This document shows, piece by piece, positions 43,561-62,756 of a DNA stretch of 64,000 nt. Made by a program: the position numbers and the translations under genes. The stretch is from Amycolatopsis rubida (GTDB lineage Bacteria; Actinomycetota; Actinomycetes; Mycobacteriales; Pseudonocardiaceae). Every line of letters begins with the position of its first letter. Positions within the stretch are counted from its first letter, which is position 1. A model generated the notes under the pieces. The model was not told the origin of the DNA. It did not search any database and was given only the letters and a program-made list of their open reading frames with translations. The stretch lies in NCBI RefSeq assembly GCF_900115345.1, contig NZ_FOWC01000002.1, forward strand, positions 62,001-126,000, in the 5' to 3' direction.

Positions 43561-43591
43561 GGTTTCCTCCGACACGGTGTCGGAGGAAACC
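43561..43591. promoter_or_regulatory. Class B operator (ABC operon), 31-bp near-complete palindrome
   Basis: TCCGACACGGTGTCGGA at 43568-43584 is the core. The palindrome extends to 15-bp arms (GGTTTCCTCCGACAC and its complement) around one G. Confidence 0.8.
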
Positions 43592-43596
43592 GCTGA

Positions 43597-44646
43597 TCAG
43601 ATCAGGGCGGCGAGCACCGCGTCGTTTTCTTCGGGCAGCCCGATCGTCACGCGCGCCCCGCCCGCCTTCGGGAACGGCCGCGCGAGCACGCCGCGAGCCG
43701 CCAACCGGGACAACAACTCGGCCGCGTCTCCCGGCAGGAAAAGGAAATTCGCCTGACTCGGCACGAACGCGACGTTCGCCGCGGTCAGCGCGGCCTCGAC
43801 CCGCGCGCGCTCGGAGACGATGACGGCGGTTCGTTCCTTCGCCACAGCCAATCCTTCCGCGCCCAGCGCCGCGATGACCGCCGCCTCGGCCACGCTGTTG
43901 AGCGCGAACCCGACGGACGTACGGCGCAGCGCTTCCGCGATCCGCGGTGCGGCAGCGGCATAACCGACCCGAATGCCCGCCAAACCGTGCGCTTTGGACA
44001 GTGTCCGCAGCAGCACGAGATTCTCGAACTCGTCGAGCAATCCGGCAGTCGCGTCCGCTGGTTCGGCAGACACGAACTCGCGGTACGCCTCGTCGACAAC
44101 AACCAGCACGCGCGCCGGGACGCTTTTCAGGAAGTCGCGGATATCCTCGACACCGCGCAGCCCGCCCGTCGGGTTGTTGGGATTGCAGAGGTAGACAATG
44201 CGGGTTTCCGGGCCGACCGCGGCGAGCATCGCGTCGAGATCCATCGCGCCGTTCTCGTCGAGACCGACCTCTGTGGACTCAGCGCCGGCGAGCGAAAGCG
44301 CCGCCGCATACGCCTCGAAGGACGGCACCGGGCGCACACCGTGCACGCCGGGTTCGCAGACCAGGCGGGCGAGCGCGTGCAGCAGCGTGCCGGATCCGTT
44401 GTCGATCGCGATGCGGCCGGCGTCCAGACCCATCGCCTCGGCGACAGCGGCACGTGCCGCGGCACGGTGGTAATCGGGATAGCGATGGGCATTCCGGGCC
44501 GCTTCGGTCATCGCGGCGACGATGACGTCGGCGGGAGCCCACGGCATTTCGTTCTGGGACAAGCGGATCGGCGGCGGCGCACCGCGAGACGAGCGATCGG
44601 GGGCGGCGAGCACGCGGTCGACCACACTGCGGAGCTCCAGCAGCAT
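43597..44646 (-). CDS. Class I/II aminotransferase (HisC-like)
   Basis: A 349-residue PLP enzyme of the histidinol-phosphate aminotransferase group. LCNPNNPTGG contacts PLP, VVDEAYREF gives the Asp/Tyr pair, and LLRTLSKAHGLAGIRVGY carries the Schiff-base Lys. No other histidine genes are present, so it likely transaminates an aromatic or related amino acid. A class A operator lies 26 bp upstream, linking it to the nearby amidohydrolase, decarboxylase and dehydrogenase genes. Confidence 0.88.
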   Translation of the reverse strand: MLLELRSVVDRVLAAPDRSSRGAPPPIRLSQNEMPWAPADVIVAAMTEAARNAHRYPDYHRAAARAAVAEAMGLDAGRIAIDNGSGTLLHALARLVCEPGVHGVRPVPSFEAYAAALSLAGAESTEVGLDENGAMDLDAMLAAVGPETRIVYLCNPNNPTGGLRGVEDIRDFLKSVPARVLVVVDEAYREFVSAEPADATAGLLDEFENLVLLRTLSKAHGLAGIRVGYAAAAPRIAEALRRTSVGFALNSVAEAAVIAALGAEGLAVAKERTAVIVSERARVEAALTAANVAFVPSQANFLFLPGDAAELLSRLAARGVLARPFPKAGGARVTIGLPEENDAVLAALI

Positions 44647-44671
44647 GCATCCTCCTCAAGCCGGACGATTA

Positions 44672-44688
44672 ACTGTAATGAATATACA
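44672..44688. promoter_or_regulatory. Class A operator, aminotransferase promoter
   Basis: ACTGTAATGAATATACA matches the copy at 48573-48589 at 14 of 17 positions. Confidence 0.75.
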
Positions 44689-44733
44689 TAATTCTGAGCG
44701 CGTGTACATCCATCAGTTCTCCGGCTTGCGAGA

Positions 44734-45414
44734 TCAGGAAGGCCGGGCCGCCACCGCGGGACGGCGATGCCGCGAAATCGCCGACTCGGCCAGCTCGTGG
44801 TCGCGCTTCATGACCGCCTCGGCGAAGTCGAGGTGCGTCCGCAACCGCTCCCGCGTGGTCGGCGCGGTGACGCCTTCGAGCCGCGCGGCGATGATGTAGT
44901 CGACGAGATTCGTGTACAGGCTGCGCAAAAGCTCGTTCGGCGACACCTGCGCGATCCGCGCGTGCAGCGCCCAGATCGCCGTCGGCGCTTCGGCGGAATC
45001 CCAGGCCGCCTTCAACGTGTCGGCACACCCCGAGATATCAGCGATGTCCTCGTCGCTCGCGTTCTCGACCGCGTCGTGCAGCACCGAACCGTCGAGCGCG
45101 TCCAGGACGCGCAGGCAGTTCTCCACGGTCGCCTTTCCTTCGCGCAGCTGGAGCAGCTGATCGCTCAGGTGCGTGAACGGCGAGCGCGTCGCGACGAAGA
45201 TCCCGCCGCCCGGGCCCGGCTTCGCATCGACGATGCCGCGGGCGCGCAGCAACTGGATCGCCTCGCTCAACGTCGCCGGAGCGACCCCGAAGCGCGCCAT
45301 CAGCTCCTGACGGCGCCCGACGAAATGCCCGGCACTCCAGCCCTCCGAGACGATTTCGTCCTCAAGCGCGCGAGCGACCTGGACGGCGGCGGCGGTGTTC
45401 GTGATCTGCGGCAA
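44734..45414 (-). CDS. GntR/FadR-type regulator with FCD domain
   Basis: A 226-residue regulator. Residues 10-75 form the winged helix (RRQELMARFGVAPATLSEAI, then GGGIFVATRS). The rest is an all-helical FCD sensor ending in HLDFAEAVMKRDHELAESAI. Such proteins repress catabolic genes until an organic acid binds. TTG 45414 has GGAGG upstream. It sits inside the class A regulon and is a good candidate to read those operators. Confidence 0.87.
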   Translation of the reverse strand: MPQITNTAAAVQVARALEDEIVSEGWSAGHFVGRRQELMARFGVAPATLSEAIQLLRARGIVDAKPGPGGGIFVATRSPFTHLSDQLLQLREGKATVENCLRVLDALDGSVLHDAVENASDEDIADISGCADTLKAAWDSAEAPTAIWALHARIAQVSPNELLRSLYTNLVDYIIAARLEGVTAPTTRERLRTHLDFAEAVMKRDHELAESAISRHRRPAVAARPS

Positions 45415-45510
45415 GGGTCCTCCGAAGTACTCAGTCCGGTGACGTCGCCGACGCGGGTCACGCGTAGTGACAGATTAGAGGCGCACCGGAACCCCGCACA
45501 CCCGGCATCG

Positions 45511-45527
45511 TCTATATTGATTGTAGA
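45511..45527. promoter_or_regulatory. Class A operator, M20 amidohydrolase promoter
   Basis: TCTATATTGATTGTAGA matches the consensus at 15 of 17 positions. It lies between the GntR gene and the amidohydrolase gene. Confidence 0.78.
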
Positions 45528-45580
45528 CATTAGACCCATGCGTCACCAGTGCGGCACGCACCGTTGCCCAAGGAGCCCCG

Positions 45581-46777
45581 ATGCCGGTTTCCGCCCTCGT
45601 CCCCGCCGCCCTTCGACCGGAGCTGGTCGCACTCCGCCGCACCCTCCACGCCCACCCCGAAGCGGGGTTCGCCCTCCCCCGGACCCAGCGGGCCGTCCTG
45701 ACCGCAATGGCCCCGCTGGGCTTGGAAGTGACCCCCGGCCCACCCGACTTCACCTCAATCGTCGCCGTACTGCACGGCGCACGACCCGGCCCCGCGGTCC
45801 TCTTGCGCGCGGACATGGACGCGCTGCGCGTCACCGAGGAAACCGGGCTGCCGTTCGCATCTCAGACGCCCGGGTTGATGCACGCGTGCGGCCACGACCT
45901 GCACACAGCCGCACTAGTCGGTGCGGCGAAGCTTTTGAGCGCCCGCCGAGACGAGATCGCAGGCTCAGTGGTGTTCATGTTCGAACCAGGCGAAGAAGCC
46001 GGCGGCGGCGCACAACGACTGATCGACGAGGGAATCCTTTCCGGCGTCGAGGCGGCATACGGCATCCACGTCCTGCCCGGCCGCTCCGGCGTGTTCACGA
46101 CCCGCCCCGGCTCGGTCATGGCCGGGGCCAGCAGCCTGACCGTGCGCGTGCTAGGACGCAGCGGCCACGGCTCGCGACCGCATCAGGCGGTGGACCCAGT
46201 CCCCGCCGCAGCACAGATCATCTCGGCACTGCACACCTACGTCACCCGGCGGTTCCCGGTATTCGACCCAGTTGTGCTGTCAGTGACCAAAATGCAGGCA
46301 AGCGACATCATCAACGCCATCCCCGACGAGGCAACGCTAGCCGCGACGATCCGCGCACTGTCGGCGGAGAGCGTGGAAATCCTGGCCCGCGAACTGCCGT
46401 CACTGGCGAACGGAATCGCGTCGGCCTTCGGCTGCCGAGCAGAGACAGAGTTCCGGTCGGTCTACCCAGTCACCTCAAACGACCCGAAGGCAGCAGCACA
46501 CGCGCTAACCGTGCTAGGCGACCTGTTCGGCACGGAACGAGCTGTGCCACTGGAGCACCCGATAATGGCGTCGGAAAGTTTTTCCGCTGTACTGAACGAG
46601 GTCCCCGGCGCCTTCATCTTCCTCGGCACCACACCGGAAGGGATCGACCCCGGCACAGCGGAAATGAACCACTCCCCCCGCGCAACCTTCGACGACAGCG
46701 TGCTGTCCGACCAGTCAGCAGCACTAGCAGCACTCGCCCTCAGCCACGTACGTGAGGGCCGCCCTGAGGAACTCTGA
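45581..46777 (+). CDS. M20-family N-acyl-amino-acid amidohydrolase
   Basis: A 398-residue metallopeptidase-like enzyme of the hippurate/IAA-amino-acid hydrolase group. LLRADMDALRV and MHACGHDLHTAAL hold metal ligands, and FEPGEEAGGGAQRL the catalytic Glu pair. It should split an amide between an acyl group and an amino acid. ATG 45581 follows AAGGAG. Its stop codon lies in the loop of a 19-bp stem-loop, so termination of translation and transcription coincide. Confidence 0.9.
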   Translation: MPVSALVPAALRPELVALRRTLHAHPEAGFALPRTQRAVLTAMAPLGLEVTPGPPDFTSIVAVLHGARPGPAVLLRADMDALRVTEETGLPFASQTPGLMHACGHDLHTAALVGAAKLLSARRDEIAGSVVFMFEPGEEAGGGAQRLIDEGILSGVEAAYGIHVLPGRSGVFTTRPGSVMAGASSLTVRVLGRSGHGSRPHQAVDPVPAAAQIISALHTYVTRRFPVFDPVVLSVTKMQASDIINAIPDEATLAATIRALSAESVEILARELPSLANGIASAFGCRAETEFRSVYPVTSNDPKAAAHALTVLGDLFGTERAVPLEHPIMASESFSAVLNEVPGAFIFLGTTPEGIDPGTAEMNHSPRATFDDSVLSDQSAALAALALSHVREGRPEEL

Positions 46778-46799: not shown

Positions 46800-46821
46800 A
46801 CCAACAACCGAACCGCAGCTA

Positions 46822-48572: not shown

Positions 48573-48589
48573 TCTATAATGAATATAGA
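48573..48589. promoter_or_regulatory. Class A operator, TPP enzyme/PucR divergon
   Basis: TCTATAATGAATATAGA has perfect 6-bp arms and is the most symmetric class A copy. Confidence 0.8.
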
Positions 48590-48625: not shown

Positions 48626-49777
48626 ATGACTCTCGAAGGACAGGTGCAGGCCTACGCCGACCGGCTCGGGCGGCCGATCATCGTGTTCGACGCCGACTTC
48701 ACGGTGATCGCGTTCAGCGTGCACGACCAGGACGTCGACCACGCCCGGCTGGCGATCATCTTGTCCCACAAAGGATCTTCGCGCGCCCGGGAGTCCATCC
48801 GGGACTACCGGGTCGGCCAGGCGCGGGACCCGGTCCGGATTCCGCCGCTCGAGGGCGGGCAGTCCCGGCTCGTCGCACCGGTCCGGCACGAGGGGCGGCT
48901 CGTCGGCTACCTCTCCTCGACAATCCCCGAGGACGACGAATCCGCCTACGCGGACGACGACGAACTGCGCGAGCGCCGGGCACAGATCGGATTGCTGCTG
49001 GCGGCGATGGCACTGGGCAACCGGGAGGACGAGGACCGCGCGCGACGCCTGCTCGCCGCGCTGCTCGAAGGCAACGACGGCCAGCGCGTCCGGGCCGCCG
49101 ACGAACTGCTCACGAGCGGCCTGCTCTCCCCCGTCCCGCACTACACGGTCATCTCGATCGCGACCCCGCCGCGCGCCGAGCCCAGTTCGGCGACGCTCCG
49201 GCTCGTGCTGGACCGGGCGCTGTCGAGCATCCCGGTCTTCCCCACCTTGAAAGCCGTCGGCGCGGTGCTCGGCAGCGAAGCCGTCTTGCTGGTGCCCTAC
49301 GAAATCGACACCGAGCGACTGTCGGCCCTCCTCGCACAGCCCGCCTTTTCCGGTCTGCACGCCGGGGCCGGCGGAGCGCACGCGCCGCTGTCCGGCGTGC
49401 ACCGGTCGCTGCGGGAAGCGCGGATCGCCTTGCGCGGCGGCGACGCCGGCCGCGTGGCCCGCTGGCCGGAGCTGGGATTGGACCGGCTGCTGTTGCAGCT
49501 GCCCCTCGAAGACCTCGCTCTCGCAGATCTCCCCGACGCCGTACGGCGGCTGCTCGACGCGCAGTCCGGCCCGGATCTCGCGCAAACCCTGGAGACCTAC
49601 CTCGACTGCGGTTGCGACGCCCAACGCACCGCGCTGACCCTGCACGTCCACCGCAGCACCCTCTACTACCGGCTGGATCGCGTGCGCGCGGTCGCCGACG
49701 TCGATCTCGCCGACGGGAAGGTCCGCCGCGAACTCCACACCGGACTGCGGGTCGCGACGCTCGCCGGTCTTCGCTAG
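48626..49777 (+). CDS. PucR-family transcriptional regulator
   Basis: A 383-residue regulator. The N-terminal 130 residues look like a GAF/PAS-like sensor (RPIIVFDADFTVIAFSVHD). The C-terminus is the PucR helix-turn-helix: LETYLDCGCDAQRTALTLHV, then HRSTLYYRLDRV. PucR proteins usually activate catabolic genes. ATG 48626 follows GGAAGAGG. It is divergent from the TPP enzyme and followed by an aldehyde dehydrogenase; both have class A sites. Confidence 0.88.
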   Translation: MTLEGQVQAYADRLGRPIIVFDADFTVIAFSVHDQDVDHARLAIILSHKGSSRARESIRDYRVGQARDPVRIPPLEGGQSRLVAPVRHEGRLVGYLSSTIPEDDESAYADDDELRERRAQIGLLLAAMALGNREDEDRARRLLAALLEGNDGQRVRAADELLTSGLLSPVPHYTVISIATPPRAEPSSATLRLVLDRALSSIPVFPTLKAVGAVLGSEAVLLVPYEIDTERLSALLAQPAFSGLHAGAGGAHAPLSGVHRSLREARIALRGGDAGRVARWPELGLDRLLLQLPLEDLALADLPDAVRRLLDAQSGPDLAQTLETYLDCGCDAQRTALTLHVHRSTLYYRLDRVRAVADVDLADGKVRRELHTGLRVATLAGLR

Positions 49778-49805: not shown

Positions 49806-49822
49806 ACTATATTCAATGTGAA
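49806..49822. promoter_or_regulatory. Class A operator, aldehyde dehydrogenase promoter (weaker copy)
   Basis: ACTATATTCAATGTGAA matches the consensus at 12 of 17 positions, 22 bp before the start codon. Confidence 0.6.
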
Positions 49823-51281: not shown

Positions 51282-52892
51282 TCAGCCGCCGCGGAGGCGT
51301 TCCCAGAGGCGGGCGGCGAACTCCGGGGCGGGTGGAGCGCCTCGCCACACCACCGTCTGGTCTTGACGTACCAAGGTGATCGGCTGCTGGTACTCGGCGG
51401 GCAAAGCGTCGGCCTCGATCGAGGCGAACGGGATGCCCCGGCACTCCGCCTCACCGGCCAGCACCGAGAGATCAACGCCGTGAGCGGTAACCGCGGTATA
51501 GCCGGGCGAGAAATGGTCGTACAGCGAAGATCCGTCCGCCAGCGTGAAATGCGGGGCTCGGCAACCGGGCACAGTGGACGGGGTGTAGGCGCCCATCGTG
51601 TAGCCGGGCGCTTCCTCGCCGTCGTAGGCGATGATCGGGGAATCGTGGTACGCGTACCCGTAATTCAACCCCGCGGCGGCGAACTGCGGTTCGTTCAGGT
51701 CCCGTACGACGGCGCCGAACGACGAACGTGCGGCCTCTCCGGCCGGGGTGTCGTCTTCGAGTTCGGCCGGAAGCCCCGGCCGCGCAAGTTTCCGCTGGTG
51801 GTTCATCGCGAAGTGCGACACCTGTTCGGTAATCGGCCGTCGCTCGGCTTCGTAGGCGTCCAGGATCCCTTCCCCGGCCCAGCCGGCGAGATGCGCGCCG
51901 AGCAGCCAGGTCAGGTTGAGCACGTCCGCGATGCCCGCGTTCATCCCGAATCCGGCGAACGGCACCCACAGGTGCGAAGCGTCCCCGGCGAGGAACACCC
52001 GCCGGTCGCGGAACCGGTCGGCGAGCAGACGGCGGGCCACCCAGTCCTCTTTGGACACCACGTCGTACTCGAACGACTCGTCCACACCGAGGATCGCGCG
52101 GATCGCTTCGTCTCGATCGACCGCCTCGTCCGCCGAGGAAAGGTAGGTGTGCACGAGGAAGGTTTCCGTGCCGTCGATCGCGTACACATGCCCGACGCGG
52201 CGCGCGTTGAACGTGTAGTAGCCCCACGCCCGCGGTTCGTCGGCGGACATCAGCGAGTACAGCTCCGGCGCGCGAATGCAGGTCGACTGCACGTGCTGGA
52301 GCACCGGATCGCCGCTGAGCTTCGCGCCGATCTGCTTGCGTACCGCCGAGCGCCCGCCGTCCGCGCCGATGAAGTACCGAGCGCGCAGAGTGCGTTCGCC
52401 CGATCCGTCGGACACTACCGCCGAGACGGACGACGAGTCCTGCTCGACCGAATGGAACCTGGTCCGGTTGAGCAGTGTCACGCCGGGTGCGGCAGCGGCG
52501 TTGCGGGCGAGGATCGGTTCCAGGAACGTCTGGTTGATCCGGTGCGGCGGTTCCGGCGTCGCCCAGCTCGTGTCGGGGCCGAGGCGGGAGGTGTACCGCT
52601 CTCCGCTCGCCGGGATCGGGATGCGCGACAGTTCCCGTCCGGTCAGCGAGGTCCGGAACGCGACGTCCTGCGGGTAGTCGCGCGGCAGTCCGGCAGCGCG
52701 CACCTGGTCCGCGATCCCGAGCCGCCGGAAGCTTTCCATGGTGCGCGAGGCGACGTGGTTGCACTTGACGTTCGGCGGTTCCAGGAACTCCCGTTCCTCG
52801 ACGACGGTCACCGGCACGCCGCGGCTGCTCAGGTCCAAAGCGGCGACCAGCCCGACCGGACCCGCGCCGGCGATGAGGACGTCTGCGTCCAT
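51282..52892 (-). CDS. FAD-dependent aromatic hydroxylase (class A, MhpA/PheA-like)
   Basis: A 536-residue flavin monooxygenase. DVLIAGAGPVGLVAALDL binds FAD, YFIGADGGRSAVRKQIG is the DG region, and VFLAGDASHLWVPFAGFGMN is the GD motif. The C-terminal 150 residues form the thioredoxin-like domain of phenol-hydroxylase relatives. It should hydroxylate a phenolic ring with NAD(P)H. ATG 52892 has GGAG six bases upstream. It is the last gene of the eight-gene aromatic operon. Confidence 0.88.
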   Translation of the reverse strand: MDADVLIAGAGPVGLVAALDLSSRGVPVTVVEEREFLEPPNVKCNHVASRTMESFRRLGIADQVRAAGLPRDYPQDVAFRTSLTGRELSRIPIPASGERYTSRLGPDTSWATPEPPHRINQTFLEPILARNAAAAPGVTLLNRTRFHSVEQDSSSVSAVVSDGSGERTLRARYFIGADGGRSAVRKQIGAKLSGDPVLQHVQSTCIRAPELYSLMSADEPRAWGYYTFNARRVGHVYAIDGTETFLVHTYLSSADEAVDRDEAIRAILGVDESFEYDVVSKEDWVARRLLADRFRDRRVFLAGDASHLWVPFAGFGMNAGIADVLNLTWLLGAHLAGWAGEGILDAYEAERRPITEQVSHFAMNHQRKLARPGLPAELEDDTPAGEAARSSFGAVVRDLNEPQFAAAGLNYGYAYHDSPIIAYDGEEAPGYTMGAYTPSTVPGCRAPHFTLADGSSLYDHFSPGYTAVTAHGVDLSVLAGEAECRGIPFASIEADALPAEYQQPITLVRQDQTVVWRGAPPAPEFAARLWERLRGG

Positions 52893-52903
52893 GGTTTCTC
52901 CGT

Positions 52904-53866
52904 TCAGCACGGCATTCCTTGCGCCACCACGCCAAGGTGCTCGGTCATCAGCCGGCGGGCAGCATCCTCGTCACGGTCCTCAATGGCCTGAAGGATGCGG
53001 CGGTGCGCATCGACGGCGCGGGACGCCCGTTCGGCGTTGGTGTGCACGGCGTACACGCTCTCCCGGGGACGGTTCAAAGCACCGACCGACGCGGCGATGG
53101 CGGGATTCCCGCTGAGCAAGCCGAGCCGGGAGTGGAATTCCAGCGACAGCGGGTTGTAGCGGCTGGCGTCGTGGACGTGTTTCTCCGATTCCTCGACCAG
53201 CGCCCGCAGTTGCGCGATCTGATCGTCGGCCGCGGCACGAGCGGCGAGCGCGGCTGCCGCGGGTTCGACCGCGTGCTGCGCTTCCAGCAGCTGTTCGGTT
53301 CGCATCCCGTGCAAATGCAGCTGGATGGACAGCGAATCGGCGATCCGGCCGATGTCCGCCTCGGCCTCTTCCGCCGTGTTGAGTTCGCGGTATTCGCCGG
53401 ACCAGTACAGCAACGGCTGCCCGGTTCCGCCGCCCGCGGAAACGACTTCGCCGACGAGGATGATGTGGTCGCCGCCGCCGAGCATCGTGTGCACGGTGCA
53501 GTCGAACCAGCTCAGCGCGCCGGTGACGACGGGCGCACCGGTGGCCTCGGTGCGCGTCTCGACCTCGTCGAACCGTTCCTTGCTCCGGCCGCGCCCACGT
53601 CGGGCGAAACACGCGGAGACGTCCTGTTGATGGCGACCGAGCACGTTGATCGCGAAGACCCCGCTCGCGCGGATCTCGCCGAGGATCGGACTGTGCGAAT
53701 TGATCGAGACCGTCACCAGAAGCGGGTTCAGCGAAAGGGAAACGAACGAGGTCGCGGTGATCCCGTAAAGGTGGCCCTCAAGCGCGGTCGTCACCACCGT
53801 GACCCCGGAAGCGAACCGTCCGGCGGCCCGGCGGAAGCTGTCGATCCGTTGCTGGTCGGAGGTCAT
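52904..53866 (-). CDS. Flavin reductase fused to an FCD (GntR-type) sensor domain
   Basis: A 320-residue two-domain protein. Residues 10-165 are an HpaC-like flavin reductase: RRAAGRFASGVTVVTTALEG, TSFVSLSLNPLLVTVSIN, FAINVLGRHQQDVS. Residues 190-318 are an FCD helical bundle (LEFHSRLGLLSGNPAIAASV, then AVDAHRRILQAIEDRDEDAA), normally attached to a GntR winged helix, which is absent. The Asp usually four residues before the first FCD His is Ser here. The reductase should feed FADH2 or FMNH2 to the HpaB-type oxygenase in the same operon; the FCD domain may gate it with an aromatic effector. Confidence 0.88.
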   Translation of the reverse strand: MTSDQQRIDSFRRAAGRFASGVTVVTTALEGHLYGITATSFVSLSLNPLLVTVSINSHSPILGEIRASGVFAINVLGRHQQDVSACFARRGRGRSKERFDEVETRTEATGAPVVTGALSWFDCTVHTMLGGGDHIILVGEVVSAGGGTGQPLLYWSGEYRELNTAEEAEADIGRIADSLSIQLHLHGMRTEQLLEAQHAVEPAAAALAARAAADDQIAQLRALVEESEKHVHDASRYNPLSLEFHSRLGLLSGNPAIAASVGALNRPRESVYAVHTNAERASRAVDAHRRILQAIEDRDEDAARRLMTEHLGVVAQGMPC

Positions 53867-53871
53867 GGGAT

Positions 53872-54510
53872 TCACCTCGCCTCGTCCGGAACGCCGAGCT
53901 GACGGAAGTCGTAGACGTCCAACGTGGTCTCCCCGGAACGAAGACGGTCCAGATAGGCCGCTTCCTTCTCCGCCCGGGCCCGGGACGCGGCCAGCACCCG
54001 GCCGTACTCGTCCGCCGGGAACACGACGATCCCGTCCCGGTCGGCCACGACGAGGTCGCCGCGGCGCACCACCCGGCCGCGCAAGGTGATCGGGCGGCCG
54101 ACGGTTCCCGGCCAGCTCTTGACCGTGCCGCGGATCGAGATCGCCGTGCTGAACGCCGGGAACCCGAGCGAGGCGAGCTGCTGGGTGTCGCGGACGCCGC
54201 CGTCGATCACCAGTCCGGTGAGACCGCGTGCCTGCGCCGCGACCGCCATCACCTCGCCCCAGTACCCGAACGGCGCGCCACCGGCGTCGACCACGAGCAC
54301 GTCACCCGGCCCAGCGGCTTCGATGCCGTGGTGCAGCGCTAGGTTGTCGCCGATCTGCGCCGACACCGGCACCGCACGGCCGACCATCTGCGCGCCGTCC
54401 CAGGCCGGCCGGAACGCGGGGTCCAGGAAGCAGTCGAGGCCGGAAGCCTCGTACAGCGTTGCCGTGCCGAGCGTCAGCAGTTCCTCGGTGTCTTCAGCCA
54501 ACGTGGTCAT
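53872..54510 (-). CDS. RraA-family aldolase-like protein, paralogue 1
   Basis: A 212-residue RraA/HMG-CHA aldolase-fold protein. The active-site segment reads WGE, then twenty residues, then Arg-Asp (DGGVRDT), so the metal-binding Asp of the D-X20-R-D motif is Glu. Family enzymes split 4-carboxy-4-hydroxy-2-oxoadipate to pyruvate and oxaloacetate or decarboxylate oxaloacetate. It overlaps the next paralogue by ATGA. Confidence 0.83.
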   Translation of the reverse strand: MTTLAEDTEELLTLGTATLYEASGLDCFLDPAFRPAWDGAQMVGRAVPVSAQIGDNLALHHGIEAAGPGDVLVVDAGGAPFGYWGEVMAVAAQARGLTGLVIDGGVRDTQQLASLGFPAFSTAISIRGTVKSWPGTVGRPITLRGRVVRRGDLVVADRDGIVVFPADEYGRVLAASRARAEKEAAYLDRLRSGETTLDVYDFRQLGVPDEAR

Positions 54511-55154
54511 GCGCCCGCCCGCTGCAGATCGTGGTAGCCGTACTTCGCACGGGCTTCGGCGATCGTCGCGCCGCCGAGCGCGGCGGTGAGGATCGCCTCT
54601 TCGCGCGTCTGGATCATCTCCGCGACCTCCAGCACGTCGTCCTCGCAATCCTGCGGGATCGCCACGACCCCGTCCGAGTCGCCGAGGAGAATGTCCCCGT
54701 GGCGGACCGTCACGCCGCCGATGGTCACCGGCCCGCGTTCCTCGGCTACCTCGACCCGGTCCTTGCCGGTGCGCATGAAGCGACCGCGGCTGTAGATCGG
54801 ATAGCCGATGGACAGCGCGCGATGCGTGTCGCGGCAGACGCCTTCGATGACCGTGCCGGAGATCCCGCGCTGGTGCGCTACGGCGGTCAGGATGTCGCCC
54901 CACACCGTGCAGTCGACCCGGCCGTCGTTGTCGAGCACGATCACCTGGCCCGGTTCGACCTGGTCGATGAAATCGCCGACGGTGCCCGCCGGGACCTGTG
55001 CGCTGACATAGCGCACGGTGAACGCGCGGCCGGCCATGCGCTGTCCGTCCGCGAGCGGGGCGAGGCCGAGCAGGCTGCCCGGACGCTTGAGCTTGTCGAG
55101 GGCGTCGGAGACCGTCGCGGTGCCGAGCCCGGCGAACCGGTCAAGGAGAGACAT
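54507..55154 (-). CDS. RraA-family aldolase, paralogue 2 (canonical motif)
   Basis: A 215-residue RraA-fold protein. WGDILTAVAHQRG leads to EGVCRDT, giving an exact D-X20-R-D motif, so this is the best candidate for an active 4-carboxy-4-hydroxy-2-oxoadipate (LigK-like) aldolase. It would release pyruvate and oxaloacetate at the end of an extradiol pathway. Start and stop overlap both neighbouring paralogues. Confidence 0.86.
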   Translation of the reverse strand: MSLLDRFAGLGTATVSDALDKLKRPGSLLGLAPLADGQRMAGRAFTVRYVSAQVPAGTVGDFIDQVEPGQVIVLDNDGRVDCTVWGDILTAVAHQRGISGTVIEGVCRDTHRALSIGYPIYSRGRFMRTGKDRVEVAEERGPVTIGGVTVRHGDILLGDSDGVVAIPQDCEDDVLEVAEMIQTREEAILTAALGGATIAEARAKYGYHDLQRAGA

Positions 55155-55822
55155 CAGCGCGGCTCCACAGTGACTGCGGGGAATTGGGAATCGTGCATGA
55201 CCTCCTGCACGTCACGGCCGGACCGGACCGCCTCCGCCATCCGGGCTTCCCGCTCGGCGATTCGCCGCGCGAGCCCGACAACGCGCTCCGCCTCGCCAGC
55301 CGCGACAAAGACGACGCCGTTGACGTCCGCGAGCACAAAGTCTCGCGGGGCCACTGAGACACCAGCGATCTGGATCCGCTCGTCCATCGCTGCTTGCACG
55401 ATGCGGCCTCGCGCGCTGACCGGAACGGCCGTGCACGCGAAGACCGGGAGCTTAAGCGCTTCGCTCTCCTGGACGTCGCGGCAGGCGCCGTCCACGATGA
55501 CGCCAGCCACGCCACGCCGGACCGCGGCCTCAGCGAGCAGGCCACCCCAGCAGGAGACGTCCGTGCGGCCGTGGTTGTCGATCACCACGACGTCGTCCGG
55601 CTCGGCGATCGCGACCAGCGGAGTGGCGATGTGCGTCGCCGGTCCGGCAGTCGCTTTGGGTGCGGCGGTGACCGTGCGCACGCGGCCGGCGACGACGGTG
55701 CCGACGGGCCACATCGGCTTCAACGCGGTGACCGCGCCCGGCAGGCCAAGCGTGTCCAGTGCGTCGGAAACCGCACAGCTGTCGAGCCCGCGCAGCGCGG
55801 AGATGATCTTTTCGGGAGACAT
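55154..55822 (-). CDS. RraA-family protein, paralogue 3 (altered motif)
   Basis: A 222-residue RraA-fold protein. The motif position reads WGG, then GACRDV, so Gly replaces the metal-binding Asp while Arg-Asp is kept. It may be a regulatory or structural partner in a hetero-oligomer, or act on another substrate. It starts 2 bp after the dioxygenase stop and overlaps paralogue 2 (TGATG). Confidence 0.83.
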   Translation of the reverse strand: MSPEKIISALRGLDSCAVSDALDTLGLPGAVTALKPMWPVGTVVAGRVRTVTAAPKATAGPATHIATPLVAIAEPDDVVVIDNHGRTDVSCWGGLLAEAAVRRGVAGVIVDGACRDVQESEALKLPVFACTAVPVSARGRIVQAAMDERIQIAGVSVAPRDFVLADVNGVVFVAAGEAERVVGLARRIAEREARMAEAVRSGRDVQEVMHDSQFPAVTVEPR

Positions 55823-55824
55823 GC

Positions 55825-56841
55825 TCACTTCCGTTCCCAGGCAAGGAAACCCATCGCATTGCCGGTACCGGCTTCCGTCCGGTAGCACGGCTCGTAGTCG
55901 ACGCTGGTCACGGCGAGACCGGCCTCCTCGGCGATCCCGGCGACCGCGATCCAGTTGCGCAGCTCCGAGGCTCCGGACCGCATCTCGGCGGCCGGGACGC
56001 TTGAGAGGTAGTCGGCGTCGTGGTCCCGCAGCGCCTGGAGGAACTCCTGGTCCAGCTTCTCGTCGATCACGAAGTGGCTGAGCCCGCCCGAAGCGACGAC
56101 GCCGACGCGCAGGTCGCCGGGGAAGGACCGGATCGCCCGGCCGGCCGCGCGTCCGAACTCGTAGCAGCGTTTGGCTCCCGGCGGATTCGGCTCCCAGAAG
56201 GTGTTGATGAAGATCGGCACCATCGGCAGCATCGACTCCTGGCCGAGGAATCGCTGGTAGATGAACCCGAAGCCGTGCGGGATGGTGTGGTTCTCGTACC
56301 GCCCGGCCGGGACGACCTCGGTGGCTCCGGTGTCGAAGTCCTCGGCTTGGGTGGACTGGATGATGTGCTTGCCGAGCGCGCGGTGCGCGGGCCGCATGAT
56401 CGTGCGGTCCGGGACGTCGCCGGTCGCGGCCTCGGCCAGGCCGGGGGCCATCGCGTCGAGCTGCGCCCGGGTGAACGGCACGTGCGCGACCTCGTCGCCC
56501 CAGAACACCGAGAACGGGGCGAGCCATTCGTCGCCGTAGGTTTCCTTGTGATCGCTGGAAACGATGACGAGGACGTCAACGTCCTGGGTGCGAATGAAGC
56601 TTGCGAGCCGGTCCATCGACCGCTGGCAGCTCTCCCAGCGACGCGCCATCACCTCGGGAGTGATCTCGTTCGAGAAGTCCTCCCGCAGCTCGCGCAGTTC
56701 CTCGTAGCTGTAGGTCCCGCCGCGGAACTTCAGCCCGGTGCTGGCGCGGTCCGCGGTCCCCCTGGTGTCCCAGGCGTGCGGCGGTGGCGCTTTCAGCTGC
56801 GGTCCGTGCGAGGTGCCGATCCCGGCGACGATCTCGGTCAT
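55825..56841 (-). CDS. DODA-type (class III) extradiol ring-cleavage dioxygenase
   Basis: A 338-residue LigB-superfamily enzyme. GIGTSHGPQL gives the first iron His (His12), VIVSSDHKETYGDEW the second His region, and GLSHFVIDEKLD the region near the last ligands. Class III dioxygenases open protocatechuate, gallate or homoprotocatechuate beside the hydroxyls. The neighbours, a LigJ-like hydratase and RraA aldolases with no LigC or LigI, favour a gallate-type substrate that yields oxalomesaconate directly. Gallate dioxygenases are longer (about 420), so this is an inference. Confidence 0.85.
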   Translation of the reverse strand: MTEIVAGIGTSHGPQLKAPPPHAWDTRGTADRASTGLKFRGGTYSYEELRELREDFSNEITPEVMARRWESCQRSMDRLASFIRTQDVDVLVIVSSDHKETYGDEWLAPFSVFWGDEVAHVPFTRAQLDAMAPGLAEAATGDVPDRTIMRPAHRALGKHIIQSTQAEDFDTGATEVVPAGRYENHTIPHGFGFIYQRFLGQESMLPMVPIFINTFWEPNPPGAKRCYEFGRAAGRAIRSFPGDLRVGVVASGGLSHFVIDEKLDQEFLQALRDHDADYLSSVPAAEMRSGASELRNWIAVAGIAEEAGLAVTSVDYEPCYRTEAGTGNAMGFLAWERK

Positions 56842-56853
56842 GACCTTCCCCTC

Positions 56854-57855
56854 TCAGAGCTGGAAGAGCGCGCGGGCGTTGTTCTCAAGGACGTCGGCGC
56901 GCTCCTTTTCGCCGAGCCAGGCGATGTCGTCGATGAGCAGGTGGATGTCGTCGAACCAGCGGCCGGTCTCCGGGTCGAGCTGCGAGCCGGTGCCCGGTTT
57001 CTCCGAGCCGAACAGCACCCGGTCGGTGCCGACGACTTTCATCAGCAGTTCCAGGCTGTCCTGGGTGTACAGGCACGAGTCGAAGTGCAGCAGACGCAGT
57101 TTGTCCAGATAGGACACTCCGGTGCGCACCACCGACGGCAGGAAACGGCCCACCTGGTACGGAATCGCGCCGCCACCGTGCGAGACGATCACCTTGAGAG
57201 CTGGGAAGTCCTTCAGCACGCTGGAGTTCACGAGGCTCCACACCGCGACGGTTTCTTCCTGGATGAAGTGCAGGCTGTACGGCTCGCGCGCGGGCGGCTT
57301 GCACCCGGCCGCGTGCAGCAGCACCGGCACGTCGAGTTCGCACAGCACCTCGTACACCGGGTACCAATACCGGTCCCCGAGCGCGAGCGGGGTTTCCGTG
57401 CCCTCGTACGGATCGGTGTTGAGCATCGCGCCGACGAAGCCGAGTTCGGTCACTGCGCGGCGCAGCTCCGCGGTCCAGTCCCGAGGGGTCAGATCCGGGC
57501 TCTGCGGGAGTCCGGCGACGCCCTTGAACCGGCCGGGGAACAGCTCGGTCGCGCGGTGGATGAGGTTGTTGGTTTCCTCGGTGAACCACTGCACCAGCTT
57601 GGCAGGCCGTTCGCTGTGCATCATCTGGAACGGGCGGGGCGAGATCATCTGCAGGTCGATCCCGGCGCCGTCGAGGTGCGCGAGATGGGAGAGGTCGCCG
57701 AAGCTCGGGTGCGGGTGGTGATACGCGGCGGCGAGCGCGTCGTCGCTGATGGCCGGGGGTTTGCCGCCGTGCGCGCCGCGGTGCGAGAGCAGCGAGGCTT
57801 TCCAGGCGTAGTAGGCGTCCGGCGCGGACATGTGGCCGTGGACGTCGATGATCAC
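56854..57855 (-). CDS. Amidohydrolase-fold protein, LigJ-like 4-oxalomesaconate hydratase candidate
   Basis: A 333-residue TIM-barrel protein. IIDVHGHMSAP is the first metal motif, AGLPQSPDLTP and DRYWYPVYEVL follow the LigJ pattern, and KDFPALKVIVSHGGGAIPYQ with LFGSEKPGTGSQLDPETGRW completes it. LigJ hydrates 4-oxalomesaconate before aldol cleavage. Decarboxylases of the same fold are the alternative. GTG 57855 has AAGGAG upstream. It lies between the HpaB-like and dioxygenase genes. Confidence 0.8.
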   Translation of the reverse strand: MIIDVHGHMSAPDAYYAWKASLLSHRGAHGGKPPAISDDALAAAYHHPHPSFGDLSHLAHLDGAGIDLQMISPRPFQMMHSERPAKLVQWFTEETNNLIHRATELFPGRFKGVAGLPQSPDLTPRDWTAELRRAVTELGFVGAMLNTDPYEGTETPLALGDRYWYPVYEVLCELDVPVLLHAAGCKPPAREPYSLHFIQEETVAVWSLVNSSVLKDFPALKVIVSHGGGAIPYQVGRFLPSVVRTGVSYLDKLRLLHFDSCLYTQDSLELLMKVVGTDRVLFGSEKPGTGSQLDPETGRWFDDIHLLIDDIAWLGEKERADVLENNARALFQL

Positions 57856-57872
57856 GGGATGCTCCTTGCGTC

Positions 57873-59327
57873 TCAGCCGAGCGGCTTGCTGATGAGTTCG
57901 TCGACGCGTGCGTCCGTCGCCGACGTGTCGTAGAAGCGCAGCAGCCGGGTGCGGCCCGCGCCGGGATCGCCGCGGTGCAGGTACTCGTAAAGTTCCTGGC
58001 GCATCCCGAAACTCGAACCGGCGAGTTCCCAGCCGAGCCGGAACAGCCGCGCCTTCTCCGCCGCGCCGATGTCGTGGCCGCGCATGTAAAGGTCGAGGAA
58101 CGGGCGCAGTTCCGGGTTCGCCAGGTCGGCTTCGGTCGGCTGCATGATGAGGCCGGACGCGGCGACCTGACGCAGGATCTGCACCATCCGCGCGGAGATG
58201 TCGGCCGACCAGAAGCCGACGCCGTTGGTGTTGCCCGGGGCGAGGTGCCCGCCCGGCGTCACGACGGCGTCGGCCTCGGCGCCCTTGATCGCCAGTTCGA
58301 GCGTCTGGACGTAGGAGATGAGTTCGCCCAGCTGTTCCTGGATGCCGCGGAAGGTGTCCACGCCGATGGAGTGCGCGAGCTTCTTCGCGACCGAGGTGAA
58401 GAACTTCATCCGGGCGAGGAAGCGGATGTGCGTGCTCTGCAGGCTCCAGACGTTGATCCGGCCGAGGCCCTTGAGCGCGCGCAGGGAGTCGCCGAGCAGG
58501 AAGATGCGTTCGCGCGGCAGGAAAACGTCGTCGAAGAACAGCATCGCGTCCTGCTCGTCGTACCGGTTGCCGAGCGGGTGCGAGTGCCCGCTGCCGGCCG
58601 CGCCGAGCGGTTCGCGCAGCAGGATCTTCAGGCCCGGCGTGTTCATCGGCAACGCGAACCAGATGACGAAGTCTTCCGCCCCGCGCGCCGCGGTGACGCC
58701 GTTGAGGTACACCAGCACCTCGTGGGAGAACGGCGCGAGGGTGGCGAGTTGCTTCGCACCGCGCAGGATTACGCCGTCCTCGCGTTCCGCCACGACGCGC
58801 AGGGCGAGGTCCGGGTCGTCGAGCGGGCTGGCGCTGCGGTCGATCTGCGGGTCGCCGAGGGCGTGGGTCAGGACGAGGTCGTGCTCCATCGCGAACCGGC
58901 GGTAATCCCGGGCGTTCTGGCCGAAACCTTCGCGGTTCTGGTCGAGTTCGCCGGCGTAATCGGCGAGTCCGGCGGCGACATTCGACATGAAGTCGGGCGA
59001 ACGGCCGAGCTGTCCGAGGCTTTCCCGCATCCACCATTCCGACGCGCCGAATTTGGCGCGCAATTCCTCCGGAGTCTTCGGCAGCGAAAACGCGTAGCTG
59101 ACCTCGTTGCCGGTCTCCGCGGACTTGAACAGGGTCGCCGCCCGCCCCTCGGGGGTGGCGAACCGCAGGTCGAGCAGCCGGGCGAACTCGTCGACGGTCG
59201 GCTTGAGCGCCGGGTGCTCGGCGACGTTCCCGATGCGCTTGCCATCGAGCCAGACCTCGCGGCCGTCGTTCAGGCTCTTTTTGTACTGCTCGCCGGTGAG
59301 CGCCCCGGTGGCACCGGAAATGTCCAT
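57873..59327 (-). CDS. HpaB-family FADH2-dependent aromatic hydroxylase
   Basis: A 484-residue acyl-CoA-dehydrogenase-fold monooxygenase of the 4-hydroxyphenylacetate 3-hydroxylase family. GALTGEQYKKSLNDGREVWL opens it; DPQIDRSASPLDDPDLALRV and ERIFLLGDS are typical central segments. It uses reduced flavin from a partner, here the fused reductase, to add a hydroxyl ortho to a phenol. It is the first gene of an operon of eight; two class B operators lie 110-146 bp upstream. Confidence 0.88.
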   Translation of the reverse strand: MDISGATGALTGEQYKKSLNDGREVWLDGKRIGNVAEHPALKPTVDEFARLLDLRFATPEGRAATLFKSAETGNEVSYAFSLPKTPEELRAKFGASEWWMRESLGQLGRSPDFMSNVAAGLADYAGELDQNREGFGQNARDYRRFAMEHDLVLTHALGDPQIDRSASPLDDPDLALRVVAEREDGVILRGAKQLATLAPFSHEVLVYLNGVTAARGAEDFVIWFALPMNTPGLKILLREPLGAAGSGHSHPLGNRYDEQDAMLFFDDVFLPRERIFLLGDSLRALKGLGRINVWSLQSTHIRFLARMKFFTSVAKKLAHSIGVDTFRGIQEQLGELISYVQTLELAIKGAEADAVVTPGGHLAPGNTNGVGFWSADISARMVQILRQVAASGLIMQPTEADLANPELRPFLDLYMRGHDIGAAEKARLFRLGWELAGSSFGMRQELYEYLHRGDPGAGRTRLLRFYDTSATDARVDELISKPLG

Positions 59328-59436
59328 GTACTCCGACTCCTTTGGCTGTGACGGGCCCGCACCGGGCGACGATTCGAAGCTACGGAAATCGCCGCGCCGG
59401 GGAATCGGTCCGCTGCGGGAATCTCCGCCGAGGGCG

Positions 59437-59453
59437 TCCGACACCGTGTAGGA
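59437..59453. promoter_or_regulatory. Class B operator, HpaB operon, distal copy 1
   Basis: TCCGACACCGTGTAGGA, 15 of 17 matches to the consensus. Confidence 0.75.
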
Positions 59454-59456
59454 AAG

Positions 59457-59473
59457 TCCGACGCGGTGTCGGA
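59457..59473. promoter_or_regulatory. Class B operator, HpaB operon, copy 2
   Basis: TCCGACGCGGTGTCGGA, 16 of 17 matches. Exactly 20 bp from copy 1, so the two lie on the same helix face. Confidence 0.78.
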
Positions 59474-59489
59474 ACCGCGCACGACCGGA

Positions 59490-60935
59490 TCACCGGATCG
59501 TCGGGACCGTCACCCATTGCCAGCAGGTGAACTCGTCCAGATTCCAGTGCCCGCCGTGCCGTCCGCCGTTGCCGGACGCGCCGAGGCCGCCCATCGGGAT
59601 GTGCGCGGCGTCGTAGATGGTCTGGCCGTTGAGAGCGACCATCCCGGCCCGCAACCGGGAAGCGAACCCGAGAGCGCGCGCGACGTCGCGGCTGTGGATC
59701 GCGGCGGACAGGCCGTATTCGGTCGCGTTGGCGAGTTCGAGTGCTTCTTCTTCGGTCGAGAACCGGGTTACCGGAGCGACCGGGCCGAAGATCTCGCTCC
59801 GGAAAGCCGCGTTGTCCGCTGTTACGCCGTCGAGCACGGTCGGCTGGTAGAACGCGCCGTCGTGCGTGGCCCCGTGCACGACCCGCGCGCCGCCGGCGAC
59901 CGCGGCTTCGACGATGCCGTGCACCCGCTCGGCCTGCGCGGTCGTGATCAGCGGGCCGAGCGTCGTCCCGGGTGCCTTCGGATCGCCGAGCCGCAGTTTC
60001 TCCGCCGCCGCTTTGAGCCGCGCGACGTATTCGCCGGCGATGCTTTCGTGCACGAGATGCCGTCCGGTCGCCATGCAGATCTGGCCTTGGTGCCGGAAAG
60101 TTCCGCCGGCGCCACCGGCGGCGGCGCGGTCGAGATCCGCGTCTGCCAGTACGATGAACGCGTTGTTGCCGCCGAGTTCGAGCACCACCCGTTTGAGCAG
60201 GCCGCCCGCGATTTCGCCGACCCGGCGGCCCGCGGCGGACGAGCCGGTGAACGAGATCGCGTTCGTGTGCGGCGAACGCACCACAGCCTCACCGGTCGCC
60301 GCACCGCCGGGCAGTACGTGCAGCACGCCTTCGGGCAGACCGGCTTGTCCGAAGATGTGCGCGAGCACCGCGCCGCCGGAGAACGCGGTCTTCACGTCCG
60401 GCTTGACCAGCACCGCGTTGCCCAGCGCGAGCGCCGGGGCGACCGAACGCATGGCGAGCATCAACGGTGCGTTCCAGGGCGCGATCACCCCGACGACGCC
60501 GACCGGGATCCGCCGGGCCAACCCCAGCGTCGCCGGGTCTTCGACCGGGAGCAGATCGCCCTGCGACATCGTGACCAGCCCGGCCGCGGCGATCAGTTCG
60601 TCGATCGCCTTGTCGACCTCGTGCTTCGCTTTTGCCGGCAGCGAACCGCTTTCGCGCACGAGCACGTCCTCGACGTCGGCGCGGATGTCGCGCAACGCGT
60701 CCGCGGCCCGGGTGAGGACGCCGGCCCGCTCGCGGTACGACGCACGGCTCCACTCGGCCTGCGCTTGCGCGGCACGTGCCCCGGCCCGCTCGACATCGTG
60801 CTGATCGGCGAGGCCGGCCAGGCCGACTTTCCCGCCGTCGCCCGGCGAGACAACCGGTTGTGTGCCGCCCCCTCCGGCACGCCAGCCGCCAGAGCAGATC
60901 CGCCCGTCTGCCTCGCTGAGATCCCACCGGGCCAT
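59490..60935 (-). CDS. Aldehyde dehydrogenase (benzaldehyde dehydrogenase-like)
   Basis: A 481-residue aldehyde dehydrogenase. VIAPWNAPLMLAMRSVAPAL and FTGSSAAGRRVGE bind NAD(P), LELGGNNA holds the Glu, and HQGQICMATGR the catalytic Cys287. The pattern fits aromatic-aldehyde dehydrogenases. ATG 60935 has AGGCGA upstream. With the benzoylformate-decarboxylase-like gene behind it, it could turn arylglyoxylate-derived aldehyde into an aromatic acid. A class B operator lies 106 bp upstream. Confidence 0.9.
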   Translation of the reverse strand: MARWDLSEADGRICSGGWRAGGGGTQPVVSPGDGGKVGLAGLADQHDVERAGARAAQAQAEWSRASYRERAGVLTRAADALRDIRADVEDVLVRESGSLPAKAKHEVDKAIDELIAAAGLVTMSQGDLLPVEDPATLGLARRIPVGVVGVIAPWNAPLMLAMRSVAPALALGNAVLVKPDVKTAFSGGAVLAHIFGQAGLPEGVLHVLPGGAATGEAVVRSPHTNAISFTGSSAAGRRVGEIAGGLLKRVVLELGGNNAFIVLADADLDRAAAGGAGGTFRHQGQICMATGRHLVHESIAGEYVARLKAAAEKLRLGDPKAPGTTLGPLITTAQAERVHGIVEAAVAGGARVVHGATHDGAFYQPTVLDGVTADNAAFRSEIFGPVAPVTRFSTEEEALELANATEYGLSAAIHSRDVARALGFASRLRAGMVALNGQTIYDAAHIPMGGLGASGNGGRHGGHWNLDEFTCWQWVTVPTIR

Positions 60936-61040
60936 GTGCGTCGCCTGCCAATCCTGGTGCGGGTGCGGAGATCTCCGCGATGCTAGGCCGGCGCGAGCCC
61001 TCGCTTCATCGCCCCGGCGACGCAAATCCCGCGCCCGCGA

Positions 61041-61057
61041 CTGGACACGGTGTCGGA
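61041..61057. promoter_or_regulatory. Class B operator, aldehyde dehydrogenase promoter
   Basis: CTGGACACGGTGTCGGA, 14 of 17 matches, overlapping the gap before the TPP gene's stop. Confidence 0.65.
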
Positions 61058-61059
61058 AA

Positions 61060-62670
61060 CTACTGCCACAGCTGGTCGTTCACCCGGACCTCGATCAACC
61101 GGGGCCCGTCCTCCGGCCCCGGGTCCTCGGCGAGCGCGGCCCGCAAACCGGCGACTCCGTCGACCGTCACCGCCTTGATGCCGAACGCCGTCGCCAGCGC
61201 GGCGATCTCCACGCCGCTGATGTCGGTGAGCGGATACTCCCCTCGCTCGCCTCCGCTTTTCCGCATCCCGGCGACCACGGCTTGGTACTTCCCGTTGTTC
61301 ACCACGAGATAGGTCACCGGCAGCCGGTAGCGCGCCACGGTCCAGAACGCGGGCACGCCGAACTGGACCACGCCGTCGCCGACCACCGCGAGCACGCGCT
61401 CGCGTCGCGCCATGGCCACACCGGCCGCGGCGCCCATTCCCCAGCCCAGCGAGCCGCTCGCGGTCGCGAACAGCGAATCCGCCCGCGTGCGCTGGAGAAA
61501 CCGCAGCAACGGCAACGTCGAAGTCACCGCGTCGAGGACCAGCAGCCGTTCCCCGCCAATGACGTCGGCGAGAGTGCGCATCGCCACCGCAGCACTGAAT
61601 TCCCCGTCCAACGGCACTTCCGCCGCCCAACGAGCGTGCCGGTCCGCGCTGTTCTTGAGCACCCGGGCAGGCCATTCGCCCCGCGAAGGCGCGCGGACTC
61701 CTTCGGCCACTCCGCGCAGCGCCGCCACGGTATCGCCGACCACCGCGCCGGCTGGGACATACCGACGGCCAGGCTCGGCCGCGTCTTCCGAGAGATGCAG
61801 GATCGGGACGCCGGACGGCAGCGCCGCTACCTCGGCCGAGAACTCCAGCGGGGTCGGCATGCCCGCCAGCACCAGCAGGTCCGCTTCCGCCAGCATCGGC
61901 GCGCGCGGCTCGAACAATCCGGCGTACAGCGGATGATCCGTGCGGAAGGACCATCGTTCGAGGTCGCGCCGGGACTCCACGAACACCGGCGCGCCGAGCC
62001 GCTCAGCCAACCGCGCCAAGTCCGTCTCGGCCCCGCGCCGGGCGACGTCCGACCCCGCGACGAGCACCGGCCGTCGCGCCGCATCGAGCAATGCGCTCGC
62101 GTGCCGGACCGCCTCCGCGGCCGGGCCCTGCCGCGCGCCCCAGCGGACCGGAGGCGCCACACCGGGTTCGGCGGCCAGATGGTCTTGCGGGATCGTCAGA
62201 ATCGCCGGTTGCTCCGGGATCACCGTGGTATGCCACAGCGTCCGGCTGACATCCTCCAGCAGGTCCTCGGCGCGGAGGTTCTGCCAGGCATGACCCACGT
62301 ACGGCGCGGCCGTTTCGAGCAAACGCGGCGAAGTCGTCAACGCGCGGTGCGGGAGCGTCGCCGTTCCCTTGATCCCCGCGAGAATCGCGACGCTGCTGCG
62401 CGCGACCTGAGCCGCGTACAGATGCGCCAAGCCGTTCGCGACCCCGACGTTCGTGTGCAGGTAGGCGACCCCGATCCGGCCGGAGGCACGCGCGTAGCCG
62501 TCGGCCATCGACACCGAGATCGCCTCGTGGGTGGTCAGCACGAACTCGGGTCCGCCTCGCCGGGCGGCAAGCGCGTCGAGCACTGGTATCTCGCTGGTGC
62601 CGGGGCAGCAGAAAACGTGCTCGATTCCCCACTGCGCCAAGGTTTCCAGCAACCGCGCGGCAGCCGTCAT
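61060..62670 (-). CDS. TPP-dependent decarboxylase (benzoylformate-decarboxylase-like)
   Basis: A 536-residue thiamine-diphosphate enzyme. [15 protein letters not shown] and [18 protein letters not shown] hold the catalytic Glu; [20 protein letters not shown] to VVNNGKY is the GDG...NN cofactor motif. It may decarboxylate an aryl 2-oxo acid, feeding the adjacent aldehyde dehydrogenase. ATG 62670 is preferred; a GTG at 62679 is in frame. Two class B sites lie upstream. Confidence 0.86.
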
Positions 62671-62705
62671 GCCCAGCACGCTACGCAGCGCGCCGGGCCG
62701 GGCGC

Positions 62706-62722
62706 TCCGACGCGGCGCCGGA
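62706..62722. promoter_or_regulatory. Class B operator, TPP enzyme/methyltransferase divergon, weaker copy
   Basis: TCCGACGCGGCGCCGGA, 14 of 17 matches, 36 bp upstream of the TPP gene. Confidence 0.55.
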
Positions 62723-62739
62723 AGAAACTGGGCGGACTG

Positions 62740-62756
62740 TGCGACACGGTGTCGGG
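62740..62756. promoter_or_regulatory. Class B operator, TPP enzyme/methyltransferase divergon
   Basis: TGCGACACGGTGTCGGG, 15 of 17 matches, 21 bp before the divergent methyltransferase start. Confidence 0.72.

Follow-up and report, generated by a model that had tools for sequence, protein, structure and literature searches.

Conserved 17-bp palindromes before aromatic-catabolic genes of Amycolatopsis rubida as likely activating sites of a PucR/CdaR-type regulator

A 64,000-nucleotide stretch of the Amycolatopsis rubida genome (contig NZ_FOWC01000002.1, positions 62,001 to 126,000; hereafter the window) carries a 17-bp palindrome, here called class B, at six places before aromatic-catabolic genes. 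An initial annotation had proposed that these palindromes unite one regulon, and had seen no obvious cognate regulator nearby. The locus thus raises the question of which protein reads the palindromes, which genes they serve and in which direction control runs. We find it highly probable that a PucR/CdaR-type regulator encoded at 48626-49777 uses the class B palindromes as upstream activating sites and through them drives four minus-strand aromatic-catabolic units. This reading would supply a concrete operator, a spacing rule, a target list and a candidate regulator for an aromatic meta-cleavage cluster.

The class B palindrome has the form TTCCGACAC-S-GTGTCGGAA. With up to three mismatches allowed, the window holds ten strand-wise matches at six places and none beyond them; shuffled windows gave a mean of 0.67 matches, and 0/100 reached ten. 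These are the places named in the initial annotation, which had spoken of six copies of one palindrome. All six exist, but they are unequal: with either central base accepted, 43568 alone is exact, 59437 and 59457 have one mismatch each, 62740 has two, and 61041 and 62706 have three each. The 43568 copy was correctly described as embedded in a 31-bp palindrome (43561-43591), which is perfect around its centre base, and the tandem copies at 59437 and 59457 indeed have their centres 20 bp apart. The place counted as a copy at 62706 reads instead as a fuller form of a proximal half-site described below. The features, with distances relative to the predicted RNA start, are as follows:

43568-43584, minus strand: class B operator of the ATP-binding cassette (ABC)/amidohydrolase/Rieske operon, inside the 31-bp palindrome, centre at about -75
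59437-59453, minus strand: class B operator, proximal tandem member, HpaB operon, centre at about -75
59457-59473, minus strand: class B operator, distal tandem member, HpaB operon, 20 bp further, at about -95
61041-61057, minus strand: class B operator of the aldehyde dehydrogenase gene, three mismatches (one in relative G012)
62740-62756, minus strand: class B operator of the thiamine pyrophosphate (TPP) enzyme gene, centre at about -77
62706-62722, minus strand: proximal element of the TPP promoter, centre at about -43, a fuller third half-site (7/9)

Conservation was examined among relatives. HpaB is 96-100% identical in seven of the 80 genomes of the genus that were searched, its own included, and 95-98% identical in the named Amycolatopsis records. 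In aligned intergenic regions the palindromes are kept at 43.57 kb (6/6 aligned) and at 59.437 and 59.457 kb (7/7), with the 59.437 copy of A. orientalis DSM 43388 forming a perfect palindrome. The 43.57-kb site is less discriminating because the region around it is conserved throughout. Sites 61041, 62706 and 62740 are more variable, two of them exceeding three mismatches in relative G043; across relatives, the two halves of 62706 are unequally retained and 61041 varies in its left half. Upstream of HpaB, sites with 0 to 3 mismatches also stand in A. taiwanensis, Saccharopolyspora oryzae, Sciscionella marina, Specibacter cremeus, Actinomadura pelletieri and Streptomyces sp. SID8352. Specibacter has a further site (3 mismatches) between the aminotransferase and ABC permease genes, matching the window arrangement. 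Its HpaB operator is single and extended to a 27-bp palindrome (L074 9747-9773), with flanks unlike those of the 31-bp palindrome at 43.57 kb. We conclude that the class B sites are genuine: they are conserved and far exceed chance expectation.

A genome scan with a weight matrix had been proposed in the initial annotation, and we carried it out with a sequence-only profile of 20 sites in both orientations, five of them from the window (62706 excluded). The five window sites rank first, at 19.6 to 15.9 bits; the next five outside places among the matches listed score 15.0 to 13.5 bits and all lie inside predicted genes. A genome-wide scatter of the motif did not emerge when up to two mismatches were allowed: 16 such places occur in the genome, four of them in the window, against one for a reversed-pattern control, and 11 of the 12 outside places were inspected, with nine coding, two intergenic and none showing the promoter geometry described below. 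Each of the six named genomes has 2 to 11 places at this threshold versus 0 to 2 in the control, and their places with 0-1 mismatch are all on the cluster contig, save two in Streptomyces. In relative G006 (L017), a non-carrier of the same genus, an intergenic place with one mismatch lacks the geometry. A literature search with four spellings found no paper containing the operator core. That shared operators unite an aromatic-catabolic regulon is thus well supported, the sites being kept in seven Amycolatopsis and six further species and holding the top-scoring places in the genome.

The position of the palindromes relative to the predicted promoters bears on the direction of control. We compared ten promoters, four from the window and two each from Specibacter, Actinomadura and Streptomyces. 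In 10/10, spanning four genera, the sole TANNNT hexamer between the operator and +114 begins 63-65 nucleotides from the palindrome centre (63, 63, 64 and 65 in the window; 63-64 in the other six). None of 20000 first-order shuffles of the window promoters brought all four into register; with the ten together, three was the most that any of 3000 shuffles aligned. Six promoters of closer relatives (L071-L073), excluded from the ten as too similar, likewise have TANNNT at 63-64, one with a second at 75. In seven relatives, every site with up to three mismatches keeps a spacing of 63, 64 or 65, the extra distal and proximal sites standing at 83 and 31. Conversely, 14 control places (11 from the same genome, three from relatives) have no TANNNT at 63-65 on either strand, and a spaced expression of palindrome plus -10 matches exactly the four promoters within the window:

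43508-43513, minus strand: predicted -10 TACGCT of the ABC promoter, starting 63 nucleotides from the operator centre
59377-59382, minus strand: predicted -10 TAGCTT of the HpaB promoter, 63 nucleotides from the centre
60980-60985, minus strand: predicted -10 TAGCAT of the aldehyde dehydrogenase promoter, 64 nucleotides from the centre
62678-62683, minus strand: predicted -10 TAGCGT of the TPP promoter, 65 nucleotides from the centre

A -10 hexamer conventionally occupies -12 to -7, which puts the palindrome centres at about -75 to -77, a location that suits an activator. In the ten promoters, the columns at the expected place of a -35 are only weakly conserved. A fixed activator-to--10 distance with a poor -35, as at class I promoters, is thus found in 10/10, and the palindromes look like activator sites. 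The same measurements bear on whether the palindromes might be intrinsic terminators of the upstream genes. Three window sites do begin 2, 12 and 16 nucleotides after an upstream stop codon, and a hairpin could form at them; yet the distance to the upstream predicted stop ranges from 2 to over 800 nucleotides while the downstream -10 stays 63-65 away, and sites at divergent promoters follow no stop codon. With the spacing so constrained and no set place after a stop codon, we rejected terminators, which we regard as extremely improbable.

Two palindromes of Streptomyces SID8352 (L166 2394-2410 and L167 2646-2662) resemble class B and are intergenic, far from the cluster, the L166 one before a heme oxygenase gene. 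They adjoin repeats that we take to be iron-box-like. Neither has a TANNNT within 21-104 nucleotides on either strand, and we set them aside as regulon members; perhaps a different regulator uses them as its operator.

Between palindrome and -10, a degenerate stretch resembling TTCCGACAC recurs +24/+25 from the centre, at about -51 to -43. Over the ten promoters this third half-site matches at 63/90 positions, against 37 for the runner-up in the spacer, and 0/4000 shuffles reached this value; the five less related promoters, without the TPP promoter, gave 32/45 (0/4000 shuffles). The half-site repeat interval is 33-34 bp, about three helical turns. In addition to the fuller element of the TPP promoter, the window has:

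43544-43552, minus strand: third half-site of the ABC promoter, 6/9 to TTCCGACAC
59413-59421, minus strand: third half-site of the HpaB promoter, 6/9
61017-61025, minus strand: third half-site of the aldehyde dehydrogenase promoter, 6/9

Class I activation is exemplified by CRP bound at about -61.5 or -71.5. The class B arrangement shares with it a dimeric site at a constant helical phase, ahead of a poor -35; it differs in adding a proximal half-site and in the protein family proposed, which is unrelated.

Genes were called with a codon model of our own, and the proteins were scanned against Pfam and NCBIfam. The flanking genes proved to be as first described, including the eight minus-strand genes from 51282 to 59327. 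From the predicted promoters we infer four minus-strand targets:

37403-43440, minus strand: ABC permease, solute-binding protein, ATPase, amidohydrolase, a 95-residue open reading frame and Rieske protein
51282-59327, minus strand: eight-gene operon of HpaB, amidohydrolase, LigB, three RraA-like proteins, a flavin reductase-FCD fusion and a flavin adenine dinucleotide (FAD) monooxygenase
59490-60935, minus strand: aldehyde dehydrogenase
61060-62670, minus strand: TPP enzyme, nearest NCBIfam model benzoylformate decarboxylase, below its cut-off

The methyltransferase gene across from the TPP enzyme, which the initial annotation had placed among the flanked genes, was rejected as a class B target: its plus strand has no TANNNT at 63-65 nucleotides, and because the -10 is absent at the fixed distance it is probably no target. 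HpaB, LigB, amidohydrolases and RraA-like aldolases have established roles as families, and this gene content points to a phenolic acid being hydroxylated and meta-cleaved. The three RraA-like paralogues stand side by side in the one operon (53872-55822). The RNA of the TPP enzyme is predicted to start at or next to the ATG and is apparently leaderless (62670-62683); relatives G012 and G058 have a 23-nucleotide insertion between -10 and ATG.

As to the protein that reads the palindromes, the impression that no cognate regulator lies nearby did not hold. GntR/FCD and TetR genes are near, and so is the following gene:

48626-49777, plus strand: proposed cognate activator with GGDEF_2 and HTH_30 (PucR/CdaR-type), put forward from its domains, orthologue context and co-occurrence

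Its C-terminal HTH_30 domain (PF13556, E 1.4e-18) is accompanied by a GGDEF-like GGDEF_2 domain (PF17853, E 3.1e-06). Because PF07905 gave no match at E 0.001, we class the protein only as PucR/CdaR-type and not as a member of the strict PucR family. A second class B site lies between the PucR/CdaR-type gene and a divergent aldehyde dehydrogenase gene both in Streptomyces SID8352, without mismatches, and in Actinomadura, with one. In its own genome no gene matches the Streptomyces protein nearly as well as the window gene does (44% and 250 bits, against 104 bits for the runner-up); in Specibacter a 65% orthologue lies on a contig other than that of the cluster. Among 45 HpaB-type loci compared for sites and regulator, all ten with HpaB identity of at least 69% have class B sites, an FCD-extended flavin reductase and the regulator in the genome (nine in the locus, one on another contig). 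None of the remaining 35 has a regulator match in the locus, and the one with a site has it inside its HpaB-like match. Two further samples of 396 genomes each, with about four candidates scored per genome, added no regulator orthologues beyond the genome's own in one and Specibacter in the other. Because of the adjacency in two genera and the co-occurrence, we regard the 48626-49777 protein as the likely cognate regulator of class B.

Two other assignments were weighed. Palindromes of 17 bp rich in GC are common operators of TetR-type proteins, and class B resembles them; TetR genes lie at 33080 and 36438 and adjoin the Sciscionella cluster. Another regulator encoded elsewhere, for example of TetR type, might thus use class B as a conventional repressor operator while the PucR/CdaR-type gene merely travels along, and the two class-B-like Streptomyces palindromes far from the cluster may serve such a regulator. 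We consider this unlikely: among the part of the genes that was scanned, no TetR gene recurs beside the sites, the sites hold a fixed -75 off the core promoter, and only the PucR/CdaR-type regulator was seen immediately beside a site, in two genera. The GntR/FCD regulator at 44734-45414 is in the cluster, one gene from the 43568 site, and could also be thought to bind class B. Co-occurrence made us reject it as very improbable, since class B persists in Actinomadura, whose genome has no orthologue at E 1e-8, and in Streptomyces, whose genome has only a 27% match.

It is instead a second set of palindromes, class A, that tracks the GntR/FCD gene. These are AT-rich, conserved and placed in four other promoter regions of the cluster, 23-55 nucleotides before the gene starts assigned to them:

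44734-45414, minus strand: GntR/FCD regulator, proposed class A repressor
44673-44687, no strand: class A AT-rich palindrome, 27 nucleotides before the aminotransferase start
45512-45526, no strand: class A palindrome between the GntR/FCD and M20 genes
48574-48588, no strand: class A palindrome between TPP enzyme 1 and the PucR/CdaR-type gene
49807-49821, no strand: class A palindrome, four mismatches to the core used, 23 nucleotides before the aldehyde dehydrogenase at 49844

GntR/FCD orthologues (91, 91, 85 and 59%) are present in the four named genomes whose loci carry class A, whereas class A is absent from the 21-kb loci of Actinomadura and Streptomyces, where class B and the regulator persist. 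Class A thus tracks GntR/FCD, and class B tracks the PucR/CdaR-type gene. The class A palindromes are likely a second regulatory layer. One of them stands in the gap between TPP enzyme 1 and the regulator gene, which makes a cascade likely and suggests a GntR/FCD repressor standing above the PucR/CdaR-type activator.

Several points weigh against activation by the PucR/CdaR-type protein as set out here. The -10s, promoters and gene starts are predictions, the Actinomadura regulator start codon was a matter of judgement, and orthologous promoters are not independent of each other. The third half-site is weaker when the three window promoters without TPP are taken alone (18/27, reached by 12/4000 shuffles). 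The window sites rank at the top of the genome scan partly by construction, because the profile was trained on them, and some places outside the cluster in relatives reach 15-16 bits, among them a pair in G086 and single ones in G039 and G043. In Amycolatopsis, Saccharopolyspora, Sciscionella and Specibacter, the promoter region of the regulator gene itself carries class A and no class B.

In the mechanism that we propose, the PucR/CdaR-type protein would bind the palindrome centred near -75 and would also contact the degenerate third half-site, on the same DNA face and beside the poor -35. With its inducer bound, presumably an aromatic of the pathway, it would recruit RNA polymerase to the four promoters with a TANNNT -10. 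The second palindrome at about -95 would reinforce the HpaB promoter, and the fuller proximal site would strengthen the TPP promoter. In Amycolatopsis the GntR/FCD protein probably represses the promoter of the regulator gene, which has a class A palindrome, and induction would then run as a cascade. The chances appear about even that this holds across the clade, namely that its PucR/CdaR-type proteins read a three-half-site code (the -75 palindrome plus a direct half-site three turns downstream beside the -35) whose strength is tuned by a -95 palindrome or a completed proximal site. In that case the regulator would stand under a GntR/FCD repressor in Pseudonocardiales and Specibacter, and would regulate itself through a class B palindrome in Streptomyces and Actinomadura. 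One regulon would apparently have been rewired between genera, as a cascade in some and by autoregulation in others.

The direction of control is proposed because of the geometry and of family precedent. According to one report (PMC7652997), few PucR-type regulators had been studied by 2020, the family is almost wholly from Actinobacteria and Firmicutes, about half of its members have a GGDEF-like domain, and the studied relatives are mostly activators on inverted repeats of 17-24 bp. GabR of Corynebacterium glutamicum, placed there in PF07905 and without a GGDEF-like domain, activates gabTDP from two 21-bp inverted repeats between -87 and -23, each bindable alone and both needed for strong binding (PMC7652997). 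Its mode of action closely resembles that proposed for class B, both being helix-turn-helix catabolic activators on two-unit inverted-repeat sites just upstream of the -35; in contrast, the window regulator has GGDEF_2 and no PF07905, and would act at four promoters, each time through a single palindrome with an added half-site. PutR and AdeR of Bacillus subtilis are likewise activators on inverted repeats (17 and 24 bp) in catabolic promoters, although theirs is amino-acid catabolism (PMC7652997). By their listing, literature searches on PucR footprints, inverted repeats, Streptomyces and aromatic activators gave nothing apparently relevant beyond PMC7652997, and neither did the small part of matches listed for Amycolatopsis, PucR and aromatic catabolism. 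The main text of PMC9582017 does not mention PucR, CdaR or GntR.

Within the HpaB operon, a flavin reductase is fused to a GntR-type FCD ligand-binding domain (52904-53866, minus strand), with no match to a DNA-binding domain. A literature search found no account of such a fusion, and by title and opening of the abstract the flavin reductase and FCD papers retrieved appeared unrelated. Searches of plasmids gave no match for the fused reductase or the regulator. The fusion is present in 2/397 sampled genomes of the order, and both domains occur in all 120 listed of 344 homologues. In two lists of 120 proteins each, the regulator and the fused reductase apparently came from the same genome in 12 cases, which suggests genomic linkage. 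The C-terminal domain of the reductase of Acinetobacter baumannii hydroxyphenylacetate hydroxylase lets an aromatic ligand gate flavin reduction and, by analogy, the FCD domain may do the same here. Histidines 245, 288 and 310 of the fusion are invariant among 12 aligned sequences.

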